Assembly (NCBI RefSeq): GCF_027812955.1
Contig: NZ_JAPYZV010000008.1
Location: forward strand, 124,001-188,000
Direction: 5' to 3'
DNA length: 64,000 nucleotides
From: Pedococcus sp. 5OH_020
Lineage (GTDB): Bacteria; Actinomycetota; Actinomycetes; Actinomycetales; Dermatophilaceae
Position 1 is the first letter of the stretch, and each line of letters starts with the position of its first letter. Made by a program: the position numbers and the translations under genes. Shown here piece after piece: positions 41,785 through 49,143 of the stretch. The notes below the pieces were generated by a model. The model did no database searches. It was not told where the DNA came from and was given only the letters and a program-made list of their open reading frames with translations.

Positions 41785-42168
41785 ATGAGTGTTCAGGACC
41801 AGACCGCTCCCGCCGCCCAGGCTCCTGCCGAGGCGCCGGCCACGCACGGGGTTCTCCTCTCCGATGTCGCTGCTGCGAAGGTGAAGTCCCTGCTGGAGCA
41901 GGAGGGTCGTGACGACCTGCGCCTGCGCGTCGGCGTCCAGCCCGGCGGCTGCTCGGGGCTGATCTACCAGCTGTACTTCGACGAGCGCACCCTCGACGGG
42001 GACCTGGTGCGCGACTTCGACGGTGTCGAGGTCGTCGTCGACCGGATGAGCGCCCCCTACCTCGAGGGCGCGAGCATCGACTTCGCCGACACCATCGAGA
42101 AGCAGGGCTTCACGATCGACAACCCGAACGCCGGCAGCTCCTGCGCCTGCGGCGACTCCTTCAGCTGA
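41785..42168 (+). CDS. erpA: Iron-sulfur cluster insertion protein (HesB/IscA type)
   Basis: 127 residues. An A-type carrier that hands [Fe-S] clusters to client enzymes. The three ligand cysteines are in 'QPGGCSGLIYQLYFD' and the C-terminal 'AGSSCACGDSFS'. Clients in this very window could include LipA, NadA and the Rieske protein. An N-terminal Ala/Pro/Gln tail of about 25 residues is extra. Orthologue of Rv2204c. The gene ends in front of a strong hairpin. Confidence 0.93.
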   Translation: MSVQDQTAPAAQAPAEAPATHGVLLSDVAAAKVKSLLEQEGRDDLRLRVGVQPGGCSGLIYQLYFDERTLDGDLVRDFDGVEVVVDRMSAPYLEGASIDFADTIEKQGFTIDNPNAGSSCACGDSFS

Positions 42169-44850: not shown

Positions 44851-45174
44851 TCAGCCCACGAGCCGCACGTGGTACGCGGTGTGCTCGCCGTCGGGACCGG
44901 TGTGGTCCTGCGCCCCGAGGAACTCCTGCGCCTTCATCCGGCACCAGGCCGGGATGTCGGCCCGGGCGGCGGGGTCCGTGGCCAGGACCTCCAGCACTGC
45001 GCCGGCCGGGCACTCGCCAGCACGCTGCGCGAGGCGGATGACCGGCAGGGGGCAGCGCAGGCCACGGGCGTCCACGACGACCAGCGGCTGAGGCCCCGGT
45101 TCGGGCCTCCGTGTCGGCACCCGGCCGGGCCGCGGCGTGGGCTGCGTCGGCCCCGGTTCGGGCACCCCTGTCAC
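44851..45174 (-). CDS. TusA-family sulfur-carrier protein
   Basis: 107 residues: a Pro-rich N-terminal tail of about 30 residues, then the SirA/TusA fold. The sulfur-bearing Cys 41 is in 'VVVDARGLRCPLPVIRLAQ', the classic C-P-x-P motif. A second region 'DPAARADIPAWCRMKAQEFLG' matches the family's DPA…DI helix. TusA accepts persulfide from a cysteine desulfurase and passes it to tRNA thiolation, molybdopterin or other uses. Its GTG start overlaps the TGA of the desulfurase-like gene by 4 nt, so the pair is made together. Confidence 0.88.
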   Translation of the reverse strand: MTGVPEPGPTQPTPRPGRVPTRRPEPGPQPLVVVDARGLRCPLPVIRLAQRAGECPAGAVLEVLATDPAARADIPAWCRMKAQEFLGAQDHTGPDGEHTAYHVRLVG

Positions 45175-46352
45175 CACCGGGGGGCTCCGACTTCCGCCCG
45201 GACCGCTGCGACGACGGCGGGGATGGCTTCGGCGAACCGGGCCACGTCCTCGCTGCGCCCGCCAGCCACCCGCAGGAGGGGTAGCGTGACCCGGACGTTC
45301 CCGTGGGTCAGCGCCCCCATCGCGGCCAGGACGTGGCTGGGCTCGAGGGTGCTGGCAGTGCACGCCGAGCCGGAGGCGACGGCGAACCCGCGGCGGTCGA
45401 ACTCCCGGACAATGGCCTCGCCGTCGGCATAGAGGGCCGAGAAGGTGACGATGTGGGGGAGGCGATCCACAGGGTCCCCGACCACCTCGGTGTCCGGAAG
45501 GGCAGCGGCGGCGGCGCGCAGGGCATCGACCAAGGCGGTCGCCTCCCGGGCGTCCGCGTCGAGGGTCGCGCCCGTCTGCTGCCACGCCTCGGCCGCCGCG
45601 AGCGCAAGCGGGACCCACGGCGTGTGCCGCGTCGGACCGCTCAGGGCGCCGTCGGGGTCCGGTGGGCCGGGCAGGGCCCAGCGCGTCCCTTCCGGGACCA
45701 CGAGGATCCCCAGCCCACCGGGGCCTGCCCAGGACTGGGCGTCGCCGGCGAGAACGTCGTACGACGTCGGTGCCCCGGTTCGGCCCAGGCACGCCTGGGC
45801 GTCGACCACGAGTGGAACGCCCGCACGTCGGCAGGCGTCCCAGGCGTCCTCCAGGGGCTGCATCGTCCCGACCTCTCCGTTGGCCTGCTGGAGGGCGGCG
45901 GCCACGGTTCCAGGCACCTGGAGGGCGGCGTTCCAGGCCGGCAGGTCCAGAGCGCCCGACGGCTGGACCGGCACCTCGACGAAGAGGGAGGGGTCGCCCG
46001 CAGTAGTAGCTCGGTGCCGTCCTGGCGCCAGGACGGCCGAGTGCTCGACGGCCGAGGCGACCGTCCGGGCTCCGCGGCGACGCGCGGCATGTAACAGTCC
46101 CTCCATCGCCCAGCGCACCGCCGTGGGGCCGTCCGGCGCGAACGCCACCTCCGAGGGGCGGACCCCGAGGCCCTGCGCCAGGACCTCCCGTGCCTGGTCC
46201 AGGAGCCGGCGGGCGGTGCTGGCCTCTGCGTAGAGGCGGCGTGGGTCGGCCCAGCCCGCATCCATGGCAGCGAGCAGAGTCTGCCTCGCCACGGGGTCCA
46301 TGGGACCCGGCGACGCGTCCAGAATCGCCCGGTTCGGGGAGGTGCTCGCCAC
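45171..46352 (-). CDS. Cysteine desulfurase-like protein lacking the PLP lysine
   Basis: 393 residues of the class-V aminotransferase (NifS/IscS) fold. Preserved are the stacking His 104 in 'AVEHSAVLAP', Asn and Glu in 'QQANGEVGTMQPL', the PLP-N1 Asp 184 and Gln 186 in 'LVVDAQACLG', and the persulfide Cys 331 in 'ASGSACTASTLEPSH'. The Lys that binds PLP (expected in the family's S-x-HK-x-x-GPxG motif) is Ser 207 in 'GDAQSWAGPGGLGIL', and the whole protein contains no Lys residue. It is either catalytically altered or a scaffold for sulfur transfer. It overlaps tusA by 4 nt. TAACGT lies 6 nt before GTG 46352 as a -10 box. Confidence 0.88.
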   Translation of the reverse strand: MASTSPNRAILDASPGPMDPVARQTLLAAMDAGWADPRRLYAEASTARRLLDQAREVLAQGLGVRPSEVAFAPDGPTAVRWAMEGLLHAARRRGARTVASAVEHSAVLAPGRHRATTAGDPSLFVEVPVQPSGALDLPAWNAALQVPGTVAAALQQANGEVGTMQPLEDAWDACRRAGVPLVVDAQACLGRTGAPTSYDVLAGDAQSWAGPGGLGILVVPEGTRWALPGPPDPDGALSGPTRHTPWVPLALAAAEAWQQTGATLDADAREATALVDALRAAAAALPDTEVVGDPVDRLPHIVTFSALYADGEAIVREFDRRGFAVASGSACTASTLEPSHVLAAMGALTHGNVRVTLPLLRVAGGRSEDVARFAEAIPAVVAAVRAEVGAPRW

Positions 46353-46358
46353 ACCCTG

Positions 46359-46364
46359 ACGTTA
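46359..46364 (-). promoter_or_regulatory. -10 box (TAACGT) of the desulfurase-like/tusA pair
   Basis: On the minus strand TAACGT ends 6 nt before GTG 46352; leaderless. Confidence 0.5.
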
Positions 46365-46400
46365 GCCGCACCCTGACCGGACGGGGGGGTAGGGCTGGAG

Positions 46401-46406
46401 TAGGGT
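46401..46406 (+). promoter_or_regulatory. -10 box (TAGGGT) of ctaC
   Basis: TAGGGT ends 8 nt before ATG 46415. It competes with a TTG start at 46448 that has its own ribosome site. Confidence 0.45.
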
Positions 46407-46414
46407 TTGGCGCG

Positions 46415-47344
46415 ATGGCCCATCACTGCTTCGAAGAAGGTGCACCGTTGCGTCAGCTCGACGTCTCTGCGCCGCGCCCTGAGCGGCGGCGGACTGCCAG
46501 TAGGACCGCGACCATGTCCTTCGTGCTGTCGGTGGTGGCGCTCGCCCTGTCGGGCTGCGCGGGCCGGTTCCAGGACGGCTTCCTGCCGCGGTCCGCGAGC
46601 GCCAACGGTGAGCACGTCACGCGGCTCTGGAACGGCGCTTGGATCGCCGCGCTGGCGGTGGGGGTCCTCGTCTGGGGTCTGATCCTGTGGTGCGTCGTCG
46701 CGTACCGCCGCAAGAAGGACGACACGGCTCTGCCGGTGCAGTTCCGCTACAACGTCCCCATGGAGATCCTGTACACGGTCATCCCGGTGTTCATGATCTC
46801 GGTGCTCTTCTACTACACGGCACGCGACGAGGCCACGCTGCTGGACACCTCCAAGACTCCCGACGTGGTCGTCAACGTCGTGGGGAAGAAGTGGAGCTGG
46901 GACTTCAACTACGTCAAGGAGCAGACCTTCGAGTCGGGGACGCAGGCGGAGATGACCGGCGAGCCGGGCACGGAGGAGGTCCTGCCGACGCTCTACCTCC
47001 CGGTCAACAAGCGCGTCGAGTTCGTCCTGACCTCCCGCGATGTGAACCACTCCTTCTGGGTCCCCGCCTTCCTGCAGAAGCTGGACCTGATCCCGGGCCG
47101 GGTGAACAGGTTCCAGGTCGTGCCGACTCAGGTCGGCAGCTTCAAGGGCAGGTGCGCCGAGTTGTGCGGGGCCTACCACTCGCGGATGCTGTTCAACGTG
47201 CGGGTGGTCGACCAGTCCGCCTTCGAGTCGCACATCTCCCAGCTCAAGGCTCGGGGGAACACCGGCCAGCTCGACAACAGCCTCAGCCCTGAGAAGGTCA
47301 TGAACGAGGACCAGAACCGCCTCCAGGATTCAGGAAGCAAGTGA
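46415..47344 (+). CDS. ctaC: Cytochrome c oxidase subunit II (aa3 type)
   Basis: 309 residues. A signal sequence ends in a lipobox-like 'LALSGCAG'. Two membrane helices (about 68–95 and 112–132) precede the outside CuA domain: '[13 protein letters not shown]' is the electron entry, and the binuclear copper ligands are in '[12 protein letters not shown]' (Cys, Cys, His, Met) plus the upstream His in '[13 protein letters not shown]'. It receives electrons from the bc1 complex. A -10 box supports ATG 46415; TTG 46448, 7 nt after GAAGG, is the alternative. The TGA overlaps the ATG of ctaD. Confidence 0.95.
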
Positions 47345-49143
47345 TGGCAGCCGCAACCGAGTCCACCTCGACCTACCTGCGCAGCACCGGGGCCCACGCG
47401 ACCCGTCGGTTGAGCAAGGGCCGGACCGTCGTCAAGTGGATGACCACGACCGACCACAAGGTGATCGGCAACCTCTACTTCATCAGCTCGTTCGTCTTCT
47501 TCATGTTCGGCGGTGTGCTCGCGCTGCTGATCCGTGCCGAGCTGTTCCAGCCCGGCCTGCAGGTGGTGGACAACCCGGAACAGTTCAACCAGCTGTTCAC
47601 CATGCACGGCACGATCATGCTGCTGCTCTTCGCGACGCCTCTCTTCGCCGGCTTCGCGAACGCGCTGATGCCCATCCAGATCGGCGCGCCCGACGTGGCG
47701 TTCCCGCGCCTCAACATGTTGGCGTACTGGATGTACCTCTTCGGGGGCCTCATCGCGTCCGCCGGTTTCCTGACCCCCAGTGGCGCCGCCTCCTTCGGAT
47801 GGTTCGCCTATGCGCCGCTGTCGGACGCCTCCAACAGCCCTGGGCTCGGCGGAGACCTGTGGGTCTTCGGCCTGGCGCTGGGTGGTTTCGGGACCATCCT
47901 GGGGGCCGTCAACTTCATCACCACGATCATCTGTATGCGCGCCCCCGGTATGACGATGTTCCGCATGCCCATCTTCACGTGGACCGTCCTGGTGACGTCC
48001 CTGCTGGTGCTCATGGCGTTCCCTGTCCTGGCCTCCGCCCTCTTGGCTCTGGGCGCGGACCGCAAGTTCGGGGCTCATGTGTTCGACCCGGAGAACAACG
48101 GACCGATGCTCTGGCAGCACCTCTTCTGGTTCTTCGGCCATCCCGAGGTCTACATCATCGCGCTGCCGTTCTTCGGCATCATCTCCGAGATCCTGCCCGT
48201 CTTCTCCCGCAAACCGATCTTCGGCTACAAGACCCTGGTCTTCGCCACGATCGGGATCGCGGCGCTCTCCGTGACCGTCTGGGCCCACCACATGTACCCG
48301 ACGGGACAGGTGCTCCTGCCCTTCTTCGCGGTGATGACGATGCTGATCGCCGTGCCGACCGGGGTGAAGTTCTTCAACTGGATCGGCACCATGTGGGGCG
48401 GCAAGCTCTCCTTCGAGACGCCGATGCTGTGGGCGATCGGGTTCCTGGTCACGTTCCTCTTCGGTGGGCTGACCGGCATCATCCTGTCGAGCCCCGCGCT
48501 GGACTTCCACCTCACCGACAGCTACTTCGTGGTGGCCCACTTCCACTACGTGGTCTTCGGCACGGTGGTGTTCGCCATGTTCGCGGGCTTCTACTTCTGG
48601 TGGCCGAAGTTCACCGGCCGCATGCTTGACGAGACCCTCGGCAAGATCCACTTCTGGATGCTGTTCATCGGCTTCCACACGACGTTCCTCATCCAGCACG
48701 TGCTGGGTGTCGACGGCATGCCGCGGCGCTACGCCGACTACCTGCCCTCGGACGGCTTCACGTGGATGAACCAGGTGTCCACGTTCGGTGCCTTCCTCCT
48801 GGGCGCGTCGACCCTGCCGTTCCTCTACAACGTCTGGAAGACCTGGCGGACTGCTCCGCTCGTGGAGACCAACGACCCGTGGGGCTACGGCGCCTCCCTG
48901 GAATGGGCCACGTCCTGCCCGCCACCACGGCACAACTTCGACTCGATCCCGCGGATCCGCTCCGAGCGTCCGGCGTTCGACCTGCACCACGCCGAGGCTG
49001 TGGGGCTGCGAGTGGTCCAGGCCGACCCCGACACGCTCACCCGCGTCATGGCCGACGGGACGACCGCGGACCAGACTTCGCACCGTACCGGCGAGTTCGA
49101 CGGTCCGGAGCGGCATGGCCGCTACCACGAGGAGCGTGACTGA
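47344..49143 (+). CDS. ctaD: Cytochrome c oxidase subunit I (aa3 type)
   Basis: 599 residues, twelve helices. It holds haem a and the haem a3–CuB site: '[17 protein letters not shown]' (haem a His), '[15 protein letters not shown]' (CuB His cross-linked to Tyr), '[10 protein letters not shown]' (two CuB His; the Tyr/Thr belong to the K channel), '[13 protein letters not shown]' and '[12 protein letters not shown]' (haem a3 and a His). The K-channel Lys is visible. The ATG start overlaps the ctaC stop and follows AGGAAG. In M. tuberculosis ctaD is elsewhere, so here the oxidase is more complete. Confidence 0.97.

Follow-up and report, generated by a model that had tools for sequence, protein, structure and literature searches.

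Two archaeal proteins and one bacterial complex are among the closest described systems. According to PMC7585200, the IscS of Archaeoglobus fulgidus had no desulfurase activity because its Lys is replaced by Asp, its Cys served as a ligand to the cluster on IscU, and IscS1 of Methanosarcina acetivorans also lacked the Lys. In Escherichia coli (PMC2854127), sulfur passes from IscS Cys328 to TusA Cys19, the two residues lying about 4 Å apart, and two Asp of TusA assist the transfer.

The window (the whole stretch of DNA analysed, 64,000 nucleotides from Pedococcus sp. 5OH_020) encodes a NifS/IscS-like protein with Ser at the site of the PLP-binding Lys, next to a tusA gene (Table 1). To our knowledge, Lys-less desulfurase relatives are known only from archaea using IscU, and searches of the open-access literature on actinobacterial TusA-desulfurase pairs, fusions and pseudoenzymes listed no title describing the family of the window protein. 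Like the two archaeal proteins, the window protein combines a class-V fold and a replaced PLP Lys with a kept loop Cys. It differs from A. fulgidus IscS, which is archaeal, IscU-paired and uses its Cys as cluster ligand, in being actinobacterial with TusA as partner; A. fulgidus IscS (Lys to Asp) is a precedent and the window protein is a bacterial, TusA-linked variant. The family of the window protein shares the TusA Cys and both Asp with the E. coli IscS-TusA pair. The E. coli IscS, by contrast, has Lys206 and is active with PLP, and it makes a Trp45 contact that this family does not keep.

The Lys-less protein and its gene neighbourhood

The minus-strand frame proved to be as the first-pass annotation described it, with 393 residues, no Lys in its translation, His104, Asp184 and Cys331 in place, and Ser207 (TCC) at the Lys site. 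The overlap with a normal-looking tusA was also upheld, TusA matching PF01206 (E 4.6e-17, 62.1 bits, cut-off 28.6) with its CPxP Cys41 and two conserved Asp present. One PF01206 match was found in the window genome, the window tusA itself. The genome also encodes class-V proteins with an intact SGHK/TAHK Lys motif (L001, L002, L003), and a normal IscS is among its proteins.

Table 1. Positions of the desulfurase-like gene, its partner and its oxidase neighbours in the window
Feature	Position	Strand	Basis
tusA, 107 aa, GTG start at 45174, 4-nt overlap (GTGA) with the stop codon of the desulfurase-like gene	44851..45174	-	Pfam TusA
TusA Cys41 codon (RCPLP motif), equated with E. coli TusA Cys19 from the motif	45052..45054	-	
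NifS/IscS-like protein without Lys, 393 aa, GTG start	45171..46352	-	ORF and translation
Cys331 codon, corresponding to persulfide Cys328 of E. coli IscS	45360..45362	-	Alignment; Cys in 226/226 in-class loci
Ser207 codon (TCC), PLP-binding Lys site (IscS Lys206)	45732..45734	-	Alignment to E. coli IscS
ORF of ctaC (cytochrome c oxidase subunit II), next door and divergently oriented; true start inside ORF	46190..47344	+	Pfam COX2, COX2_TM
ctaD (cytochrome c oxidase subunit I)	47341..49143	+	Pfam COX1, E 2.2e-163

The protein belongs to the class-V aminotransferase family by its match to Pfam Aminotran_5 (PF00266; E 4.9e-22, 78.9 bits, cut-off 21.5). The NifS and IscS models of NCBIfam matched it far under their curated cut-offs, the best NifS model reaching E 2.1e-46 and 158.4 bits where 530.75 is required. 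Aligned to E. coli IscS, it carries Ser207 for Lys206, Pro76 for Thr76, Asp204 for Ser203, Gln206 for His205 and Ala187 for Gln183, and it leaves unchanged His104, Asp180 (Asp184 here) and Cys328, which is Cys331 on an SGSAC loop. The four positions of IscS replaced along with the Lys (Thr76, Ser203, His205 and Gln183) belong to the PLP site, and measured as a desulfurase the window protein has neither the PLP-binding Lys nor their equivalents. Gln186, previously read as a PLP-binding residue, is not the Gln of that function because IscS Gln183 falls on Ala187; position 186 itself is variable among relatives. The best matches among solved structures, 4r5f and 4eb5 (E 3e-31), which we take to be the A. 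fulgidus protein, have aligned chains with K and D at the site of the PLP Lys and Ala in place of Gln183.

Divergently upstream of the desulfurase-like gene lie ctaC, ctaD and a subunit IV gene. A gene for an A-type Fe-S carrier (PF01521) occurs at 41785-42168, some 3 kb away from the desulfurase-like gene and tusA, with pfkB and aat nearby.

Distribution and origin of the loss of Lys207

Relatives were drawn from a scan of named genomes (best 80 of 235 related stretches) and from genome searches of the phylum (matches in 327/396 genomes at E <= 1e-10, ordinary desulfurases included), the class (200/394 at 1e-45) and the order (75/297 at E <= 1e-35). DNA was read for 242 loci, representing part of the order (1e-35) and class (1e-45) matches, and 16 phylum-search loci (L028-L043) formed the outgroup. 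Removal of near-copies (more than 82% alike) and of the fragment L086 left 166 rows, 14 from the outgroup and 152 in-class.

Lys207 was present in 104 and absent from 122 of the 226 in-class loci, and Cys331 was found in every one of them, as in all 152 non-redundant rows. Among these non-redundant relatives, 81 were without Lys207, 74 of them in one clade and seven scattered (L080, L228, L229, L230, L235, L237 and L254); Asp was the commonest replacement within the clade (34/74 rows). Each of the 70 loci retrieved for the window's order lacked Lys207 and had Cys331. The absence of Lys207 is real because it is common to 81/152 relatives and to 70/70 order loci, and the latter count rules out a sequencing error or a lone mutation at position 207.

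The complete lack of Lys in the window protein is not in itself the surprise that it first seemed. It is unremarkable and compositional, since Lys207 is the sole Lys in the aligned columns of 29 of the 71 rows that carry it. Neither another position of the protein nor TusA offered a substitute Lys as a general answer, as 54/74 clade rows had no Lys at all in these columns and the Lys of the window TusA (column 52) was not conserved. An order-wide tendency to lose the desulfurase Lys was likewise ruled out by ordinary IscS from the window's order, which kept its Lys in 30 of the 30 loci read, these being the best-scoring ones of a search that matched 104/119 genomes. One genome (G544) held two divergent copies of the gene, L190 and L191, neither with a ctaC match adjoining; in L190 a Cys-rich loop, CGCTC, replaces SGSAC.

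In a quick tree built with the motif columns left out, the 74 Lys-less rows formed one branch (support 94), and eight changes of the Lys label were needed, of which the starred branches force at least four. Forcing all 81 Lys-less rows together was disfavoured (p-AU 0.0317), which rules out a single origin only weakly because the tree is quick, the group was defined by its trait and long branches lead to several of the scattered rows (L230 was flagged). Judging from the outgroups and the 71 in-class rows that carry it, the ancestor of the family had Lys207. The alignment and tree place every fetched locus of the window's order in the one large clade without Lys207, and argue firmly for one large old loss; several further losses are held only as likely, since the tree is quick. 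The loss looks separate from that of A. fulgidus IscS because the nearest Lys-bearing relatives of the window protein are actinobacterial.

Decay of the PLP site and conservation of the sulfur-transfer residues

Other residues of the PLP site have decayed along with Lys207. Thr76 was found in 68/71 Lys rows (Ser in the other three) versus 22/74 clade rows, Ser204 in 71/71 versus 4/74, His206 in 64/71 versus 0/74, Gln at position 187 in 37/71 versus 0/74, and His104 in 71/71 versus 30/74, the window protein being among the 30. Thr76 and Ser204 were retained together in only one of the 74 clade rows. The first-pass annotation had held that the protein cannot work as a desulfurase by the known PLP mechanism, and the alignment gives this good support, Lys207 and the equivalents of Thr76, Gln183, Ser203 and His205 being replaced in the window protein and in most clade rows; it is almost surely no longer a PLP desulfurase.

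Cys331, Gly328 and Arg354 were present in 152/152 rows and Asp184 in 151/152 (the exception is L230). Median dN/dS was 0.226 for Lys-bearing loci (344 pairs, 84 loci) versus 0.232 for Lys-less ones (289 pairs, 89 loci), the pairs sharing loci and so not being independent. Purifying selection has been maintained on the Cys331 loop and the transfer residues of TusA.

Adjacent or fused tusA was found in 69 of the 70 assessable Lys rows, 58/74 clade rows and 6/7 scattered rows. The TusA Cys was present in 69/69 partners of Lys rows and 63/64 partners of Lys-less rows, and the two Asp in 68/69 (one gap) and 64/64, respectively. Of the 18 desulfurase-TusA fusions found over all loci, 17 carry Lys207 and one, L141, does not. 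The Lys207-bearing desulfurases of actinobacteria that are linked to TusA belong to the same family and have the same tusA and ctaC neighbourhood as the window protein; they keep the remaining PLP-site residues, and their tusA is fused in the f5 genomes and adjacent in Nocardioides, Nonomuraea and others. The equivalent of IscS Trp45 was not kept in the alignment, even in Lys-bearing rows, and the geometry of the IscS-TusA complex may not carry over because Trp45 is a main TusA contact of IscS.

No tusA match was found next door in 16/74 clade rows and 1/7 scattered rows. Among 22 genomes searched, G617, G659 and G502 (99-100% complete) had no TusA match anywhere, and their Lys-less gene retains Cys331. 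In several of the tusA-less loci of family f82 (L173, L174, L177, L180-L183 and L187) the loop reads SGSACGK, which brings a Lys to the second position after the persulfide Cys. In other f82 loci (L259-L263, L265 and L266) a TusA match lies apart from the desulfurase-like gene, in a long open frame (837-911 aa), and for this reason probably belongs to another, multi-domain protein. A second TusA Cys (Cys78, WC motif; frame 44854-45174) was present in 67/69 partners of Lys rows versus 28/64 partners of Lys-less rows, and where Asp stood at position 207 the Cys78 position of TusA was Ala in 22/22 cases.

The ctaC gene was a divergent neighbour in 64/67 Lys rows, 66/69 clade rows and 7/7 scattered rows that could be assessed, tusA-less ones too. 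This link may have a functional basis or may simply reflect inherited gene order.

Possible functions of the Lys-less protein

We consider it slightly better than an even chance that the protein descends from an actinobacterial cysteine desulfurase linked to TusA, no longer contains PLP and handles persulfide as a partner of TusA. This is the best reading because the Cys loop, the TusA transfer residues and a Lys-less fusion have been kept. The desulfurase fold would be retained, and Cys331 would no longer be loaded from cysteine on the protein's own PLP. It would take persulfide sulfur from another donor, either a Lys-bearing IscS or SufS of the cell or a small-molecule persulfide, and pass it to TusA Cys41, the protein acting as a docking and relay subunit. 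A relay with TusA, already proposed in the first-pass annotation, agrees with the retention of Cys331 and of the Cys and two Asp of TusA, with the neighbouring position of the genes and with the natural fusions. Against a relay stand the clade rows without tusA and the residues that persist at the old PLP site, i.e., Asp184 in all rows but one, Arg354 in every row, Thr76 in 22/74 and His104 in 30/74 clade rows; the retention of Asp184 and Arg354 hints at some remaining ligand. Since G617, G659 and G502 have no TusA match, the protein would at least there do something else or use another acceptor.

The same tusA-less loci would suit a protein that carries no sulfur, whose Cys is a metal-cluster ligand or whose surface is a docking platform, a scaffold for TusA or for an Fe-S or oxidase assembly factor. 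The inactive A. fulgidus IscS, a Cys of which is reported to coordinate the IscU-bound cluster (PMC7585200), provides a parallel, and the Asp that replaces its Lys is also the commonest replacement in the clade. The neighbour or fusion partner in most rows is nevertheless TusA, a sulfur carrier, and such a platform or ligand seems unlikely to us. Distinctly less probable is a regulatory pseudoenzyme that binds TusA, or pairs with a Lys-bearing IscS, and sets the flow of sulfur without carrying any. Pseudoenzymes typically lose catalysis while the rest of the protein stays under purifying selection, as seen here, and the window genome has a normal IscS with which the protein could pair; a purely structural role would, however, not require Cys331 to be invariant in 226/226 in-class loci.

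Residual PLP chemistry, with the cofactor held without a Schiff base or the amine supplied by another residue or subunit, is very unlikely. The retention of Asp184 and Arg354 leaves room for the non-covalent PLP that was first suggested, but this is disfavoured because the residues lost with the Lys include those that hold the phosphate. A Lys of the partner cannot stand in generally either, since the window protein is Lys-free and 32 of the 64 tusA-bearing Lys-less rows show no Lys in either partner over the columns read. Least credible of all is a gene heading for loss and kept by chance beside ctaC. Gene loss is common in the order, 222/297 genomes having no match at E <= 1e-35, but dN/dS is the same as in Lys-bearing relatives and the Cys loop does not vary within the clade.

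On a broader and doubtful extension of the relay reading, the root of one bacterial order, and some other lineages again, would have seen a class-V desulfurase fold turn into a persulfide relay subunit of TusA that works without PLP. Its place beside the genes for cytochrome c oxidase would have been kept because the assembly or protection of that oxidase draws on its sulfur.

The Lys-less genes are easily misannotated as cysteine desulfurases on sequence similarity alone. A large bacterial clade and further lineages keep the persulfide Cys and the TusA partner without the cofactor site, and the Lys-bearing, Lys-less, fused, unfused and tusA-less members of the family form a natural series for probing the role of the persulfide Cys apart from desulfuration.
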